DNA from: a virus
Length of the DNA stretch: 64,000 nucleotides
Strand: one strand, 5' to 3'
IMG/VR virus record: IMGVR_UViG_3300050015_000167
Coordinates: 112,795-176,794 of that record
Within the stretch, counting starts at the first letter, position 1. Each line of letters opens with the position of its first letter. Positions 15,877-62,704 of this stretch are shown here, one piece after another. Made by a program: the position numbers and the translations under genes. The notes under the pieces were generated by a model. The model was not told the origin of the DNA. It worked only from the letters and a program-made list of their open reading frames with translations, and searched no databases.

Positions 15877-16473
15877 ATGACACCATCTATTATATCTACA
15901 GGAGAAATTTATGTTTCAATAGACATTGAAGCAGATGGAAAAATCCCTGGTGAAAGTTCCATGATTAACTTTGGTGCGGCTTTCTATGATAATATCGGCA
16001 CACCATTGAATGTTGAGTATGAAGCAAATTTGGAACCACTTTCGTATCCTGCAAAACCAGATCCAGACACAACTATTTGGTGGGAACAACAATTTAAAAA
16101 GAATCCTAAATTGAAAGAACATTTAACTTCTAATGTTCGTCCCGCTTCTATTGTGATGCAAGAGTTTGTGGATCTATCCAATACAATAGGAAAACAATAT
16201 AAAGCCCCATTAACACCGATTGCCTATCCTGCCGGGTTCGATTGGACATGGATGTATTGGTATTTGGTTTCTTTTACCAAAAATTCACCATATAGTTTTT
16301 CTTGCTTAGATATCAAGTCTTTTGCTATGGCTAAGATGAATTGTGATTACCGATGGGCTGTAAAACGTAATATGCCAAAGACTTGGTTTAATAAAACTCT
16401 CAAACACGACCACAGCGGATTAACAGATTGTAGAGGACAAGCCGCCCTTTTCTTTTCGATGAAGAATGTATAA
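15877..16473 (+). CDS. DnaQ-type 3'-5' exonuclease
   Basis: DEDDh motifs: SIDIEADG (D16, E18), AGFDWTWMYW (D122) and HDHSGLTD (H179, D184). At 198 residues it is a stand-alone exonuclease similar in size to T4 DexA. It starts directly at the previous stop, so it is co-translated with the upstream gene. Likely role: degradation or trimming of DNA during replication and repair. Confidence 0.85.
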   Translation: MTPSIISTGEIYVSIDIEADGKIPGESSMINFGAAFYDNIGTPLNVEYEANLEPLSYPAKPDPDTTIWWEQQFKKNPKLKEHLTSNVRPASIVMQEFVDLSNTIGKQYKAPLTPIAYPAGFDWTWMYWYLVSFTKNSPYSFSCLDIKSFAMAKMNCDYRWAVKRNMPKTWFNKTLKHDHSGLTDCRGQAALFFSMKNV

Positions 16474-17195: not shown

Positions 17196-17286
17196 TCATC
17201 TGTAGTTTAAAGTGTATAGAACGGTGCCATTTGGAGGCAATGATTACGGTGGGTTTTAGGACAGCAACGACCGCACAGATGGACCA
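17196..17286 (+). tRNA. Degenerate tRNA-like gene, possibly Gln (TTG)
   Basis: TCATCTG pairs with CAGATGG (first pair T-G), followed by ACCA. A GTTT/GAAC D-stem and a TGCC/GGCA anticodon stem with loop ATTTGGA (TTG anticodon) are visible. The region where the T arm belongs has no TTCGANT loop and is about 13 bases too long. It may be a decayed tRNA or carry an insertion. Confidence 0.4.
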
Positions 17287-17370
17287 ATTTTGCCGGCGTA
17301 TCGGTTCTGAGAACCGGCAAAAGGTGTTGTGGGAACTAGAGTTTGAGAGTCTTCCTAGTTTGGCACCTTA
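17287..17370 (+). other. Non-coding stretch with strong hairpins
   Basis: TTTTGCCGG (17288-17296) pairs with CCGGCAAAA (17314-17322) around an inner GGTTC/GAACC; AAGGTG and CACCTT bracket the following segment. No open frame and no canonical tRNA; likely a processed spacer or a decayed tRNA. Confidence 0.4.
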
Positions 17371-17459
17371 AACTTTCTGGAATCTCTGTTAAAATCGGAT
17401 AATTTCCGGTAGCCACGCTAAGGCCAGCATTGAGGTTCGTCTCTAAAATGGCACGTCAT

Positions 17460-17531
17460 GACGAGGAACGGCGACAATCGGAGGCCTATGTGTATCCGGT
17501 CAGTAGGGTTCGACTCCTTACCTTCGCCCCA
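17460..17531 (+). tRNA. tRNA-like 3' half with T arm and CCA
   Basis: TAGGG-TTCGACT-CCTTA is a good T arm, followed by seven bases, a discriminator and CCA at 17529-17531. The only 72-base partner, GACGAGG at 17460, pairs imperfectly and no clear anticodon arm can be drawn. It could be a decayed tRNA or part of a larger RNA that starts near 17380. Confidence 0.3.
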
Positions 17532-17596
17532 GGAGTAGTTTATGAATTATCAAGGAGGTCACTATGAGGTATTTCCGTTAAGTTAGGAGAAACTCA

Positions 17597-17785
17597 GTGT
17601 CTAAAAAAAGAGCAGTTATTACGTGCGGTTGTAAACAATGTATGGGATGTCCAAGATCATCTTGGGCTAAAAGTACCATTCAAAACACCATACAAAAACT
17701 TCGGCACAGAACAAAACAGTTTTTAAAAACAGGCGAATACGATAAAGCCTTAGATGTAATAGTTTCAACAGGTTATTTAGATTAA
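17597..17785 (+). CDS. Small Cys-containing protein inside the RNA block (62 aa)
   Basis: Starts with GTG after TAGGAGAAACTCA. TCGCKQCMGCPRSS is a four-Cys cluster; the rest is basic and helical. No family recognised. Its position between tRNA-like segments and the tmRNA is unusual. Confidence 0.5.
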   Translation: MSKKRAVITCGCKQCMGCPRSSWAKSTIQNTIQKLRHRTKQFLKTGEYDKALDVIVSTGYLD

Positions 17786-17790
17786 AGTTT

Positions 17791-17886
17791 TGAAGGAAGA
17801 TGACTCGGAGATACACCGTGTTAGTTCGTATGTGCATTGAGCATAAATCTGGGACTCGTACCCAGTTAAGCGGCTGTCTTTCCTTC
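17791..17886 (+). other. Stem-closed non-coding segment upstream of the tmRNA
   Basis: GAAGGAAGA pairs with TCTTTCCTTC at the ends, and CTGGG/CCCAG forms an internal hairpin. It cannot be folded as a standard tRNA. It may be a processing element of the tmRNA precursor or a separate small RNA. Confidence 0.3.
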
Positions 17887-18136
17887 AACCGGTATTATCG
17901 TTTAGAGTAATATAGACACTTTTCAAGACGGGAGTTCGACTCTCCCCACTTCCACCAACTTATGGGAGTGTAAAGGTTTCGATTGGACTGATGCGAGTAT
18001 TATGCGATACGTAGAGCACCTACGCTAAATAGAGCAAACACAACAAAAGACGAATTTAATTATTCTCTTCCATTAGCCGCCTAAGAAGCGCATGGACGGG
18101 TTCGGTAGCTTCCCTGGTCACCCAAAAGCTACCAAC
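17887..18136 (+). ncRNA. ssrA: Circularly permuted transfer-messenger RNA (tmRNA)
   Basis: tmRNA rescues ribosomes stalled on broken mRNA and tags the product for proteolysis. Upstream half: a T arm GGGAG-TTCGACT-CTCCC (17930-17946), acceptor strand CACTTCC (17947-17953) and ACCA. Six bases later the other half begins: GGGAGTG (17964-17970) pairs with CACTTCC in seven pairs, the third being G-U, the alanyl-tRNA synthetase identity element. TAAAGGTTTCGATTGG is the typical tmRNA D-analogue. Then a CGTAG/CTACG hairpin, an AAATAGAGCAAAC resume region, the tag frame, a stop-containing hairpin CTTC..TTAG/CTAAGAAG, and a final GGTAGCTT/AAGCTACC stem (18104-18133). GTATTAT (17997) can pair with GTAATAT (17907) as P2. 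The outer ends are estimates. Confidence 0.85.
18034..18084 (+). other. tmRNA tag-peptide reading frame
   Basis: From the GCA resume codon the frame reads ANTTKDEFNYSLPLAA and stops at TAA. A starting Ala-Asn and a hydrophobic tail ending Ala-Ala are hallmarks of ssrA tags recognised by ClpXP-type proteases. Confidence 0.9.
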
Positions 18137-18160
18137 TAAATCACACACAAAGGACACACC

Positions 18161-18918: not shown

Positions 18919-18947
18919 TTGCTATCCATTTATGAATGTGCTATAAT
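18919..18947 (+). promoter_or_regulatory. Promoter TTGCTA-N17-TATAAT
   Basis: -10 box ends six bases before ATG 18954, which is why the upstream ATG at 18936 is not chosen. Confidence 0.65.
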
Positions 18948-18953
18948 GTTATT

Positions 18954-19238
18954 ATGAATAAAACACTGATCGTTGAGGATTTCGATTCTCTATTTATCGA
19001 TCATCCCTTGTATCAGTTAAAGGAACAAATTGAGTTGGCTGTTATGACCTCATCGACATTTTCCCTTGCTATCGAAAAGCTTGTCAAAGATGAAAAGATG
19101 GATTATCTTGACGCAACATGTAAGCTATGTGAACAATACGAAATTGATTACTCTTCTGTTCCAAAACTATTGACTTCTGATATGCGGGATAAAATTGAAA
19201 TGGCAGCAACAGAACGAAAATTCAGAATAGGAAAGTAA
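18954..19238 (+). CDS. 33: Late transcription co-activator, T4 gp33-like
   Basis: The stretch IEKLVKDEKMDYLDATCKLCEQYEI followed by SVPKLLTSDMRDKIEMAATE resembles gp33 of T4-like phages, which bridges RNA polymerase and the sliding clamp to activate late promoters. At 94 residues it is close to the usual size. Its presence agrees with the TAAATA late promoters seen throughout. The late sigma factor gp55 is not in this window. Confidence 0.7.
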   Translation: MNKTLIVEDFDSLFIDHPLYQLKEQIELAVMTSSTFSLAIEKLVKDEKMDYLDATCKLCEQYEIDYSSVPKLLTSDMRDKIEMAATERKFRIGK

Positions 19239-19239
19239 T

Positions 19240-19449
19240 ATGGAACTATTGATTTGTCCCAAAAAATATTTTGATGGTGCACCCTATGGAGTTACTGTAA
19301 GTGCACCAGAACCTGAGATTTGGAGAAGAGAAAGTTTAAATCGCTTCCTATTAGACAAAGTTGTTAAGTCTGTAGAGTGGTCCGAAAATGCTAACCTTTT
19401 GTTTCATTTTTCGGATGATTCTACTCTCTATATTTCTGCCATACAATGA
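19240..19449 (+). CDS. Hypothetical protein (69 aa)
   Basis: Starts MELLICPKKYFDGAPYGV directly after the previous stop; beta-rich with FHFSDDSTLYIS at the end. Overlaps the gp59 start by four bases. Unknown. Confidence 0.6.
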   Translation: MELLICPKKYFDGAPYGVTVSAPEPEIWRRESLNRFLLDKVVKSVEWSENANLLFHFSDDSTLYISAIQ

Positions 19450-20063
19450 ACGCCTTCGAAGCTTACGAAAATTATCTAGCCATTAAAAGACACTTTACCA
19501 GTACATATGACTTTTTTAAATATAATGGAAAAGTAAATACTTCAGTAGCCGCATTTGAACGGCGCCGTGATAAATTCTTCTTTGAGAAAATAGCCAAAAA
19601 ATACTCCATCGCAAAATCTACCGATCTTTTTGTTTCCAATTTTTTAGTTAACCCAGATCAATGGATAGGAGATTTCTTTGACGATGAAGTTGAAGAAATT
19701 TACGCTGAATGGCAAAAGAAAATTGAAAGTCTTTCCTATCATTTCTCAGAAGAGTGTGGAGCTTTATTATTCTGGGCAGAAACCAATGGGTTTAAATTCG
19801 ATGAACTTTTCCGAACTAAAGATGGGTGTCACCCAATCATTGTCAAAATGGCTTTACAAAAAGTCGTTTCATTGGAAACTTTTATTATCTTAAACCAATT
19901 AATAGGATTTCTTCCTAATCTAGATAAAGAATTAAAGGACGTTATTTTTCAGGAATTACAATTTAAAATTTATAAATATCTTCCTTTTTTGAAAATAGAT
20001 TTGGAGAGTTGTAAATGTCTATTATTGAAAAAAATCAAAAATGATTTTCCTTCTTTGGTATAA
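19446..20063 (+). CDS. 59: Helicase loader, T4 gp59-like
   Basis: FFKYNGKVNTSVAAFERRRDKFFFEKIAKKYS and FVSNFLVNPDQWIGDFFDD align by eye with T4 gp59, including the RRDK motif; the length of 205 is near T4's 217. The protein loads replicative helicase gp41 onto gp32-coated DNA. Its gene is two genes upstream of gp32, as in T4. Confidence 0.85.
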   Translation: MNAFEAYENYLAIKRHFTSTYDFFKYNGKVNTSVAAFERRRDKFFFEKIAKKYSIAKSTDLFVSNFLVNPDQWIGDFFDDEVEEIYAEWQKKIESLSYHFSEECGALLFWAETNGFKFDELFRTKDGCHPIIVKMALQKVVSLETFIILNQLIGFLPNLDKELKDVIFQELQFKIYKYLPFLKIDLESCKCLLLKKIKNDFPSLV

Positions 20064-20071: not shown

Positions 20072-20560
20072 GTGATGAATTACCCAACGCCGCACAAACA
20101 CCATATTTTTCCAAAACATATGGGTGGAGATAATTCTCCCGATAATATCACACCGCCAATTTCGGTAGTGTTACATGCTGCATTACATAAAGATCTTTAT
20201 GACCATTATGGAAAGATTCAAGATCTAAAAGCTTCTCGTTTATTAATAGGTCAATCATTATCTGGAATAATGCAATCTGTTGAAACTAGAAATAAGATTT
20301 CAAAAGCATTAATAGGTAAAAAAGTTTCTGAAGAAACTAAAAAGAAGATGTCCCTATCTCATAAGGGCAATCAAAATTTATTAGGACATATAACTACTGA
20401 AGAAACAAAAAATAAAATTTCTATAGCTAATAAAGGCAAAAAACGTTCGGATGAAACTCGAAATTTAATGTCGGCCCATCATAAAGGTATGAAAGGTAAA
20501 CATCATTCCGAAGAATCCAAACTAAAAATGTCTGAAACTATGAAAAGGAAATCTTCATGA
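20072..20560 (+). CDS. HNH homing endonuclease with NUMOD3 repeats
   Basis: A compact HNH type: PHKHHIFPKHMGGDNSPDNIT and HAALHKDLYDHYG make the core, then five NUMOD3 motifs (SEETKKKMSLSHKGN and similar). Starts GTG-ATG, either of which could be used. Same subfamily as the genes at 21.0 and 26.7 kb, unlike the NKYTKTYY subfamily. Confidence 0.9.
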   Translation: MMNYPTPHKHHIFPKHMGGDNSPDNITPPISVVLHAALHKDLYDHYGKIQDLKASRLLIGQSLSGIMQSVETRNKISKALIGKKVSEETKKKMSLSHKGNQNLLGHITTEETKNKISIANKGKKRSDETRNLMSAHHKGMKGKHHSEESKLKMSETMKRKSS

Positions 20561-21023: not shown

Positions 21024-21596
21024 TTGCTACACCACCATCATATCCAACCTAAATATTTAATTGGGAAAGATAATTCACCAGATAATCTCACACCTCCAAT
21101 TTCGGTCCAATTACACTCAGCATTACATAAGGATCTTTACGATCATTTAGGTAATACAGAAGATCTCCGAGCATATAAAATGTTATTAGGAGAATCCTTA
21201 AGTGGAATAATGGAAACCCCCGAATACCGGAAGAAAATAAGTGTGGCTTTAAAAGGTATAAAGAAACCTCCATTTTCGGAAGCACATAAGCAAAATCTTT
21301 CTAAATCACATAAAAATTTAAAACATACCAAAAATCAAATTAATAAAATTTCTATTTCTTTATTAGGAAACAAAAGAGCCATAGGTAATGCCAAATTATG
21401 GATAATTATTTTCCCTGATGGATCAGAAAAAGAAATTTTAAATCTTAAACAATTCTGTAAAGAAAATTCATTGAATCCTACACATATGAGTAATGTTGCT
21501 CAAGGTAAATTTAAAGCACATAAAGGATTTAAATGTTTAAAAGTAAATGATAATGATAAGGTGAACAAGACAAATATAATACAAGGAAATATATGA
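21024..21596 (+). CDS. HNH homing endonuclease inserted in the gp32 leader
   Basis: Starts with TTG after an AAGGAAATATAAA ribosome site borrowed from gp32. The core is HHHIQPKYLIGKDNSPDNLT with HSALHKDLYDHLG; then NUMOD3 motifs and an IENR1-like end (FPDGSEKEILNLKQFCKEN, GKFKAHKGFKC). The stop overlaps the gp32 ATG by four bases. Lacking its own promoter, it depends on gp32 transcription. Confidence 0.88.
   Translation: MLHHHHIQPKYLIGKDNSPDNLTPPISVQLHSALHKDLYDHLGNTEDLRAYKMLLGESLSGIMETPEYRKKISVALKGIKKPPFSEAHKQNLSKSHKNLKHTKNQINKISISLLGNKRAIGNAKLWIIIFPDGSEKEILNLKQFCKENSLNPTHMSNVAQGKFKAHKGFKCLKVNDNDKVNKTNIIQGNI
21561..21595 (+). repeat. Downstream copy of the gp32 leader
   Basis: Contains the ribosome site ACAAGGAAATAT just before the gp32 ATG; paired with 20983-21018. 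Confidence 0.75.
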
Positions 21597-45881: not shown

Positions 45882-48800
45882 ATGCCACTTACATTTAATA
45901 CAAATCCATATTTCGATGATACCGATCCTTCAAGTGATTTTTATAAAGTGCTTTTTCGACCGGGCTACGCTCTACAGACAAGAGAATTAAATGGCCTTCA
46001 ATCGATATTGGAAGAACAGATCGCAAGATTTGGTAATCATATATTTGTTGAAGGAAGTATGGTTATTCCTGGTCAAATCGCATACGATCAAAATTTGGCT
46101 TTTGTTAAAGTTAATGCGACCTTCGGTGGCCCCATAGTTGATTATGATGTTATCGATCCTTTAGTTACAGGAACAATTGTACAAATTAAAGGAGTCACAA
46201 CTGGTGTTGTGGCCCAGGTTATTCAAGTTGCCAGAGATATTAATACCCTTTATGTTAAATACGTAGCAACAGGAACTAACAATACAACAGGTATATTTGG
46301 TGACAATGAAATCCTCAAATTACTTCCATCTAATACAAATATTTGCCAATCTATTGTAACATCTTCTACTGGTATTACCGCATCAGCATCTATTCAAGAT
46401 GGAATTTATTTTATATTTGGGAAATTCATGAGTGTTTATTCCCAAATAATCAGATTAACAGATTATAATTCAACTCCCAGTGTAAGAGTTGGTTTGCAAG
46501 TCGTTGAATCATTTGTAACACCAGAAAGTGATCCAAGTTTGAATGATAATGCTTCTGGTTCAACAAATTTTGCGGCCCCTGGAGCACATAGATATAAAGC
46601 TGAATTAGTTTTAACCGCAATAGACATTAATGCTATTACGGATGAAAATTTCGTTGAATTATTACGAGTTGTTAATGGAACAGTTCAATCTAAAGTTGAG
46701 ACTACCATTTATAGTGAAATTGAAAAAACATTGGCACGGAGAACATATGATGCTAATGGTGATTTCATTACTACACCATTCGCTTTTGATTTACATGAAC
46801 ATTTATTAAGTGGAACAAATGGTGGAATATTTACATCAGGACAAGGTGGAGATGAAACTAAACTTGCTTTAGGTATTGAACCAGGAAAAGCCTATGTTCA
46901 AGGACATGAAATTCAAACAATTTCTAAACAATATATTAATCTTAATAAGGCACGCAGCACAAACTTTTTTCAAAATAGTCACACAAGAGCCTATTTAGGA
47001 AATTATGTTTATATTAATCGTTTATTTGCCATGCCAAATTATGATACATGGCCTACGGTTAATTTATATGATACTCCTATTGTAACTGATGGAGTTGCAC
47101 CAGTAGTATCACCAATTGGAACAGCAACAGTTCGTGGTTTAGAATTTCATAGTGGAGTATTCCAATCAATTAGTAATCCTGGTCCAATCTTTAAATGTTT
47201 CCTTGCAGATATTAATATCACAACACCCAATAAATCTACAATTGACATACATTCATTAGCAGTTTCAGATGGAACATTATTAACAACCGCTAATGTACTT
47301 TCACAAGTAGATATTGTTAATGTTGTAGGTAATTTTTCACCAACAGCAACAATTACAAATGGTGCATTAGTAGAAACAATTTATGCTTGGGATACAACCA
47401 ATAATCTATTATTGACTTTACCAAATACCACACCAATTCCTACAAATTTTCCTATTGTGTCTTCATCTACAGGAACAGCTAATATTTTACAACGTATCAC
47501 ATTATTTGATACTTCAAATAATATTTTAGTATATACTTTACCACAATCTGTGGTATCTACTGTACGAGACCAAAATAACAATGTTACAACCACATACTCT
47601 TATAGAAAGGTATTTACTCCAGTTGCTACAACTGCGGGACAAGTAACCTTTGCTACAGGAGTTAATGAAGTTTTTGCGTCCTTATCTATCAGTGATTATG
47701 TGGCATCTATTGAATCAGGAGCAAATGCGGGAACATTAATTGATGTAACGAATTCCAGTCCTATTTTCGCATCAGGATTAACACAATTAATATTCAATAC
47801 ACCTCCTGGAACTACAATTAAACTTTCAGCTACAGTAGTTAAAGAAATTTCTGCGGAAAAAACAAAGACTTTGAATACCCAAAATTTGACCGTTGCTTCA
47901 CCAGGAGCAATAGTTAATTTGGGACGCGCTGACATTTATACGATTACTGGTGTTTGGATTGGAACAAATAATACAGGTCAAGAAATTACATCTTGGTATA
48001 AATTAGATAATGGACAACGAGATAATCGGTATGATTTTGGATCATTAACACTTCAACCAGGATTTACATCTCCAACATCTATCTATATTACCTATACATA
48101 TTTTTCACATAGTGGTGGAGATTATTTCTGTGTGAATAGTTATAATAATTTTGGTTCATTTACAGACTGGTATTCACGTATTCCTTCTTATAATCAATTT
48201 GCATTACGTGATTGTTTAGATTTTCGTCCTCGTGTAGATGATATTTCTGTATTCCCACCAGTGGGACCAGTACCAACAACACCTACGTATATTTCAGGTA
48301 TTGGTAAATTAGTTAAACCTAACGATGATGTGGTTACAGATTTTTCTTATTATTTGGCTCGTATAGATAAAATCTATCTATCAGATACAGGATTTTTTAC
48401 CGTAATAGAAGGAACACCGGCATTAGCACCATTGGCACCACCTAATCCATTAATTGGAATGTTAGTGGCTGTTATTACTTACTCTGCCTATACATTTTCA
48501 CCAAAATTTGTTTCTATTAAATCTATTCCTAATAAAGTATTTCCTATGAATGCTATAGGAAAATTAGAGAAACGAATTGAAAATTTGGAATATTATACAG
48601 AATTGAATCTATTAGAACAACAGACCGCATCATTTAATGTTCCTGATTCTACTACAGGTTTAGATCGTTTCAAATCTGGATTTGTGGTTGATCGATTCGT
48701 AGATATGTCCATTGCAGATTTTAATAATACCGATACAAAATTTTCAATTGATGCCCCTAATGGCATTATGCGTCCTACTTATGGATCAAATGCTATTAAT

Positions 48801-60993: not shown

Positions 60994-61653
60994 TCAATGG
61001 ACAAATGCAGCCAGCGTCATTGTAGCGCGTGTTTTTCTACGCTTGTGAGCCGCGCATAACTTCGCTTTTGTTTCATCAGAAGCTTTCATTCCCTTATGAG
61101 CTAAAGAAATTTTCCTTTTAGTTTCTTCAGATAATGGTTTACGTTTCTTTCCTAATTGTATAGCCGAAATCTTTTTACAAGTTTCTTCCGAATGTTTATA
61201 TCCTTTTCTCGAAGCATTTATATGGTCTTGATGCTCCTTTGTTTTCTTTTTCCCCTTCATAGAATTGGATATTTTTAATTTGGTTTCTTCCGTAATATTA
61301 TAAAGATGTCCTTTAGTTCCTTCACCACCATACGTCATATTATATCCTTGTCCCTCTTTATAATGAGTTTGATATAACCTTATAAAATATTCTTCCATAT
61401 ATTTTAAAGTATGTTCCTCATCTTGGGAACAATATAAAATATCTAATGCAAATGATTTTGGAGAATATTTCCTAATAGCTTTCGGAAGTAACCTGCCATA
61501 TTTACTATTCCTAAAATCTAGTTTATGGGAAGCATCATATAAATGCTCCTTAAATCTTTCTTCTGGATTTTTACTGGTAAAACCAATATAAGATTTTGAT
61601 GGATTTATAGATGTATTGGTGATTCGGTAAATGTAATAAATATGATTGGGCAT
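60994..61653 (-). CDS. GIY-YIG homing endonuclease with NUMOD3 repeats
   Basis: Start at the ATG of MPNHIYYIYRITN, after AAAGGAACATT. Nuclease domain: YIYRITNTSINPSKSYIGFTSK, AIRKYSPKSFALDIL, YMEEYFIRLYQ (catalytic Glu). Four NUMOD3 motifs, then a basic tail that ends differently from relatives (RRKTRATMTLAAFVH), perhaps read-through into flanking DNA. It sits between the helicase scar and gp13. Confidence 0.88.
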   Translation of the reverse strand: MPNHIYYIYRITNTSINPSKSYIGFTSKNPEERFKEHLYDASHKLDFRNSKYGRLLPKAIRKYSPKSFALDILYCSQDEEHTLKYMEEYFIRLYQTHYKEGQGYNMTYGGEGTKGHLYNITEETKLKISNSMKGKKKTKEHQDHINASRKGYKHSEETCKKISAIQLGKKRKPLSEETKRKISLAHKGMKASDETKAKLCAAHKRRKTRATMTLAAFVH

Positions 61654-61655
61654 AA

Positions 61656-61720
61656 TGTTCCTTTCAAACATTGTGTTTACGGGTACCGTCTCGAATAACG
61701 GTACCCACAATACTATTTAG
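61656..61720 (-). promoter_or_regulatory. Late promoter and hairpin leader of - strand GIY-YIG gene
   Basis: CTAAATAGTA on the - strand (61711-61720), then GGGTACCG and CGGTACCC forming an eight-pair stem, then AAACACAATG. Same layout as HNH leaders although the gene family differs. Confidence 0.65.
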
Positions 61721-61732
61721 TAAAAGGTAAAT

Positions 61733-62704
61733 ATGGCACAACCGTTATCAAGATCGGATTTTAAACAGTATATTTTACAGGAATTGGGATCTCCAATTAT
61801 TAATATTGAAGTTACCGATGCCCAATTAAATAATAGGATAGATGATTCCTTACAAATGTTTCGTCAATTCCATTATGATGCTTCTCAAAGGACATACTTA
61901 AAACATCAAATCACGATGGATGACATGAATAATCATTATATTCCTTGTGATGATTCTATTATGTCCGTAGTAAGGATAGTATCAACATTTTCAGATAACC
62001 TTAGTATCTTCGATATTCGTTACCAACTCCGTTAAAATGTAAGCGGCTCTAATGAGTAATCATTGGATGTAAACTCTGTGAATTGCTGGAAACTCCTTTT
62101 AAAGGACAATCAGCAGCCAAGCCTAGAAATAGGAAGGTTCAACGACTAGGATTTAATCCGTAGGCAACAGTGTTGCCGAAGTACAGAGTATCCTATAAAG
62201 GATAATGATATAGTCTGAACTCATAGGTAACTATGAGAGTTTATTCGGAAACGGAATAAACGCAACACCTTGTTACAAGATTTTTATAACTTCTCTAACG
62301 TGTCAATGCAACATTACGTCATAACGATGGAGAAACTCCGTCTTATTGATTGGTTATTAAATCCTGAAGCCACCGTATCTTTTGACAGGTTCAATAACAA
62401 AATATTCCTTAATGTTGATTGGGCAAACAGAGTATCTTTGAACGATTGGTTCATTTTGGAAGTTTATCAATATTTGGACGAGACTACAAAAATTTGGCAG
62501 GATGATTGGTTAAAGAAATATGCTGTGGCGATGGTTCGAAAACAGTGGGGAGCAAACGTCAAAAAATTTAATGGCATACAAACGTTAGGACAAGTCCAAT
62601 TAAATGGACAGCAAATCTATGATGAGGCGGTAGAAGAAATAACGGAATTAGAAAGAATATTACATTCGGATTTCCAAATCCCACCGCGGTTATTCATCGG
62701 ATAA
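61733..62704 (+). CDS. 13: Neck protein gp13, split by a group I intron
   Basis: Exons 61733-62032 and 62273-62704 join in frame to a 243-residue protein. Exon 1 has DAQLNNRIDDSLQMFRQFHYD and ends SIFDIRYQLR; exon 2 resumes LQDFYNFSNVSMQHYVITME, with FNNKIFLNVDW and YAVAMVRKQWGANVKKF, all typical of gp13 of T4-like phages, which joins head and tail. The junction restores the expected continuous alignment. Without splicing, a stop codon follows directly after exon 1. Confidence 0.85.
62033..62272 (+). ncRNA. Group I intron (240 bases) in gene 13
   Basis: Exon 1 ends CCGT, which pairs with intron GCGG (62043-62046) to give P1 with the required U-G at the splice site. The intron ends in G. The core shows GAATTGCTGGAAACTCC, CAATCAGCAGCCAAGCC, a TAGAAATA turn, AACGACTA and GATATAGTC (P7 strands GACTA/TAGTC). 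No endonuclease is inside; it is a minimal intron, although a free-standing GIY-YIG gene sits just upstream. Confidence 0.85.

Follow-up and report, generated by a model that had tools for sequence, protein, structure and literature searches.

A circularly permuted tmRNA gene upstream of gp33 in a T4-like phage

Can a T4-like phage carry its own circularly permuted tmRNA, and what could such a gene contribute to infection? The question is raised by a locus at positions 17896–18136 (+ strand) of the window, as we call the whole stretch of 64,000 nucleotides analysed, which corresponds to bases 112795–176794 of a 176,794-bp virus record. The first-pass annotation had proposed a phage-encoded tmRNA of this kind and had suggested covariance models for checking it. 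The locus is a real, intact permuted tmRNA gene, and the genome is T4-like, with homologues of gp33, gp59, gp32 and gp6 in the window.

Identification and anatomy of the gene

In the Rfam covariance search of the window, positions 17896–18084 (+) were matched by the tmRNA_permuted model RF04321 over its full length (1–213) with 96.1 bits (E 2.2e-17), above the curated gathering threshold of 47 bits, and the search of the whole virus record gave this match as the single one. The order of the parts is that of the family: T arm, acceptor 3′ strand, spacer, acceptor 5′ strand, D-analogue and tag. Among the clade-specific models the best is RF01850 (beta_tmRNA), which aligns end to end to 17807–18143 with 67.8 bits, under its cut-off of 84, and the gene is thus not a betaproteobacterial tmRNA by score. 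Nor is it of the alpha or cyano type by score, as RF01849 and RF01851 gave no match in the window at the gathering threshold. ARAGORN made no tmRNA call anywhere in the window; 17 of the 93 sequences submitted to it, some of them truncated at a contig edge, received no call. Since this program misses part of the permuted tmRNAs, published counts based on it are likely lower bounds.

The T arm (17930–17946, +) consists of GGGAG, the loop TTCGACT and CTCCC, with all five stem pairs formed (17930–34/17942–46) and in agreement with RF04321. It is followed by the acceptor 3′ strand CACTTCC with the discriminator A and CCA (17947–17957, +; ACCA at 17954–57), by the six-base intervening sequence ACTTAT (17958–17963, +), whose removal on maturation is expected, and by the acceptor 5′ strand GGGAGTG (17964–17970, +), where the coding piece starts. 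The base-by-base check agreed in full with what had been noticed at first, namely that the T arm, acceptor 3′ strand and ACCA precede the tag half by six bases and that the third of seven acceptor pairs is G-U: GGGAGTG pairs 7/7 with 17953–47, the third pair being G17966·U17951 (G3:U70), which together with ACCA gives the alanine identity. The D-analogue TAAAGGTTTCGATTG (17971–17985, +), placed by the RF04321 alignment, contains GGTTTCGA, the reference point for the tag offsets given below.

P2, which would join the two pieces, is formed by TATCG (17896–17900, +) and CGATA (18005–18009, +) with 5/5 pairs in the base-by-base check. A small hairpin, GTTTA...TAGAC (17900–17917, +), lies 5′ of the T arm with five pairs; on paper G17900 is common to it and to P2, so that one of the two pairs there gives way. 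The pre-tag hairpin CGTAG/CTACG (18010–18026, +), found by the same check, has a weak extension of only three pairs, AGC/GCT, which is a candidate for PK1. The post-tag pseudoknot (18098–18133, +), with which the conserved core ends (the beta_tmRNA alignment reaches 18143), is formed by GGGT (18098–101) and ACCC (18120–23) interleaved with GGTAGCTT (18104–11) and AAGCTACC (18126–33), with 12/12 pairs. Folded separately, the pieces have energies that improve little or not at all on those of shuffles.

A tRNA-Pro gene and several tRNA-like stretches lie close by, which would fit a T arm that is part of a separate tRNA beside an unrelated ORF, the case that the first-pass annotation itself had named as fatal to its proposal. 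We give this reading a negligible probability and reject it on the RF04321 alignment, the ARAGORN result and the acceptor pairing: a single permuted-model alignment covers both halves, no separate tRNA was detected there, and the acceptor strands pair in all seven positions across the spacer. As six nucleotides make a plausible hairpin loop, a working tmRNA could also be imagined that is left uncut, the spacer being a simple loop. Such a molecule would have no free 3′ CCA left for charging, however, and bacteria with spacers of 2–4 nt and normal tags exist; we think that it is very improbable.

The nearest relative found, in the contig IMGVR_UViG_3300044648_000053 (hereafter L046), is 72% identical over 176 nt and resembles the window in its 7-nt spacer AACTTAT, its resume codon GAC, the same flanking ORF and gp33, whereas its helix sequences are partly altered. 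Compensatory changes preserve P2 (TGCCG/CGGCA), the T stem, the acceptor, the small hairpin (seven pairs, GTCTATA/TATAGAC) and the post-tag pseudoknot, which is likewise interleaved but of other sequence (GACGT/ACGTC and TGGTCCC/GGGACCA); the pre-tag hairpin is ACGTG/CACGT. Helix conservation was also examined in 91 distinct permuted tmRNAs (the one of the window included) retrieved by a pattern leaving seven pairs free: all 91 have canonical pairs at the four free T-stem positions, and 88–90 of them, depending on the pair, at the three free acceptor positions. The phage loci retrieved by pattern have spacers of 2–30 nt.

The tag and its resume codon

In the relatives, a GCAAA motif is found at an offset of about 48–54 after GGTTTCGA and the resume codon about 15 nt further on, mostly at offset 65–69. 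The window has the corresponding pre-tag motif GAGCAAA at 18032–18038 (+), conserved at that offset in most relatives, and, in frame at offset 66, the codon GAC 18049. L046 also resumes with GAC at offset 66, and ARAGORN called its tag as DEQYALPMAA. Given the conserved motif and the equal offset in L046, GAC 18049 is the most likely first codon of the tag, which would read DEFNYSLPLAA, encoded by 18049–18084 (+) up to the TAA. AAA 18046 and GCA 18034 are possible alternative resume codons. The first-pass annotation was right in that D-analogue, resume region and tag are present, but the tag that it quoted, ANTTKDEFNYSLPLAA, probably begins 15 nt too early: its GCA 18034 lies in the conserved pre-tag motif and does not match the offset in L046, and we judge it unlikely. 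The frame is open and ends with the hydrophobic LPLAA before the stop, and resumption at 18049 would give Asp instead of the usual Ala as first encoded residue.

Position beside gp33 and spread among phages

Upstream of the tmRNA there are a 3′-5′ exonuclease-like gene (15877–16473, PF16473), a gene whose SprT-like match is weak and just under the Pfam cut-off, the tRNA-Pro gene and a Cys-rich 62-aa ORF. Downstream follow a 79-aa ORF, a lysozyme-type endolysin, the gp33-like late-transcription coactivator (18936–19238, +; PF16805, E 2.3e-17; phrog_254), the gp59-like helicase loader (19446–20063, +; phrog_269, E 8.7e-65) and gp32. The neighbourhood of L046 has the same order, from a homologous Cys-rich small ORF (62 and 76 aa in the two phages) to the tmRNA and gp33, although there is no endolysin between the last two.

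In the first-pass annotation such a gene was held to be unusual in a T4-like phage. This does not stand, as permuted tmRNAs are annotated at the syntenic site of phage Melnitz and in phage Mosig, are present without annotation in HTVC008M, and occur by the dozen in viral contigs. A two-piece tmRNA has been reported for Melnitz, a T4-like Methylophilales phage; two-piece structures made up 53 of the 133 unique phage tmRNAs in that study, in which permuted tmRNAs were found in 17 of the 47 contigs of the Melnitz cluster (PMC9004378). In addition, RF04321 has been described together with a list of 79 unique bacteriophage tmRNAs (PMC11915505). The find is therefore not without precedent, since two-piece phage tmRNAs are already published. 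Viral contigs yielded at least 89 further distinct permuted tmRNAs. At 29 of these 89 loci gp33, gp59 or gp32 could be detected, in all 29 downstream and on the same strand, and among 30 viral records chosen by gp59 alone 17 contain a permuted tmRNA. None was found in the T4-like phages phiM12, S-CREM1 and S-SSM5, hence the gene is not universal in this group. The gene of Pelagibacter phage HTVC008M (L232; KC465899.1, 145161–145370), which has no annotation in the GenBank record, scores 90.6 bits, and ARAGORN gives its tag as ANFNEYALAA.

The tmRNA of the window agrees with the Melnitz/Mosig type in lying on the same strand as gp33 and gp59 and upstream of both. Melnitz (MZ577097, SsrA 45984–46436) shares the T4-like genome, the permuted order and the position upstream of gp59, and Pelagibacter phage Mosig (MT647606), also T4-like, has its annotated permuted tmRNA between a nuclease gene and gp33; the order nuclease gene, tmRNA, gp33 is common to Melnitz, Mosig and HTVC008M. 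The differences are in the details: the Melnitz tmRNA is of the alpha type (RF01849, 106.7 bits), with a long spacer, the tag ANDNYVPVDYALAA and a glutamine riboswitch after it, whereas the window has a 6-nt spacer, the putative tag DEFNYSLPLAA and no riboswitch match in Rfam, and in it an ORF and the endolysin gene sit between tmRNA and gp33. Betaproteobacterial permuted tmRNAs (RF01850; Accumulibacter and other Rhodocyclaceae) have the same core layout and very short spacers of 2–4 nt, but carry ANDERFALAA-like tags and reach 229–235 bits against RF01850 (two examples), compared to 67.8 for the window. The window extends the family by a tmRNA that falls outside the alpha and beta cut-offs, has a very short spacer and probably carries an Asp-initial LPLAA tag; short spacers are present too in Rhodocyclaceae and other phages.

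BLAST of a 271-nt core against phages gave short matches only, most of them T-arm-like, and the plasmid search gave no match to the tmRNA of the window.

The mycobacteriophage Bxz1 group and Bacillus phage G also carry ssrA genes (PMC4131195). Their tmRNAs are one-piece and not permuted, and these phages belong to groups that differ from that of the window. Both tmRNAs and SmpB have been reported in huge phages (PMC7162821), and jumbo-size phage contigs of our set (L028, L051 and L059, 224–328 kb) likewise carry permuted tmRNAs.

A score of 96 bits, against about 160 for the Rhodocyclaceae tmRNAs, and three degenerate-looking tRNA-like stretches directly upstream might suggest a captured bacterial ssrA copy that is decaying and has no role in infection. 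We find this quite improbable: no helix is broken, the tag frame remains open, compensatory changes are seen in L046, and divergent phages share the position upstream of gp33.

T4-like phages thus often have a permuted tmRNA, at a single conserved site beside the late-transcription coactivator, and we think that this wider gp33-locus pattern and the correction of the tag are useful additions. The pattern raises the questions of whether phages retain a ribosome rescue system of their own for use in the late phase and whether it is on purpose that their tags are unlike those of the host. More speculatively, the permuted tmRNA could be a long-standing module that a broad T4-like clade has in its late-gene and replication locus (tmRNA-gp33-gp59-gp32). 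The window and L046 would then form a subtype of their own, beyond the alpha, beta and cyano cut-offs, whose Asp-initial LP(L/M)AA tag is tuned to a proteolytic fate other than that of the host tag. In our opinion this full proposal is rather unlikely as it stands.

Possible role in infection and neighbouring elements

The reading that we favour, with high confidence, is that of a functional-looking permuted tmRNA gene belonging to a T4-like phage, which would serve ribosome rescue with host SmpB. By analogy with established tmRNA biology, the 6-nt spacer would be the cleavage site of its transcript, with RNase P acting at G17964 and the 3′ end being trimmed back to the encoded CCA (last base 17957), and the acceptor and coding pieces would be held together by the acceptor stem and P2. 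The molecule would be charged with alanine through the G3:U70 pair. Assisted by SmpB and EF-Tu of the host, it would go into ribosomes that have stalled on mRNAs which are broken or lack a stop; Ala and then DEFNYSLPLAA would be added, translation would end at the TAA with release of the ribosome, and the tagged peptide would go to a ClpXP-type protease. The benefit may be that ribosomes stay available during the destruction of host mRNA, and perhaps of host tmRNA as well. Ribosome rescue, replacement of the host tmRNA and retargeted proteolysis, the functions first put forward for it, are all plausible for a phage tmRNA.

No SmpB was found in the phage contig, which may be incomplete, and this implies host SmpB as the partner. 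The same result would suit an RNA that inhibits trans-translation in the host or acts as a decoy, titrating SmpB or ribosomes; as a precedent, such a role has been suggested for the tmRNA of mycobacteriophage DS6A, which is reduced to its tRNA domain (PMC4131195, PMC11915505). Unlike that of DS6A, however, the tmRNA of the window retains an open tag, a stop codon and the post-tag pseudoknot, which are dispensable for a decoy, and we think that a decoy is improbable.

The tRNA-like stretches directly 5′ of the tmRNA lie at 17196–17533 and 17790–17885 (+). One of the three ends in ...ACAGATGGACCA, another combines a good T arm with CTTCGCCCCA near 17502–17531, and the third has a cloverleaf-like fold. 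Over 17196–17895 they gave no ARAGORN call and no credible Rfam family; they could represent tRNAs in decay or of a highly unusual kind, or be due to chance. Elsewhere in the same virus record, outside the window, there are 19 more tRNA matches at about 67–86 kb (G000:C1:67178-86152).

Between gp59 and gp32 there are two similar ORFs, 20072–20560 and 21024–21596 (+). The first matches NUMOD3/homing endonuclease families and the second resembles the first in the N-terminal half, and both are likely free-standing homing endonucleases. A group I intron at 62023–62237 (+; RF00028, 102 bits) splits the head-tail adaptor gene, whose halves (61733–62035 and 62270–62704) both match phrog_211, and a GIY-YIG/NUMOD3 homing-type endonuclease is encoded at 60994–61710 on the strand opposite to the intron.
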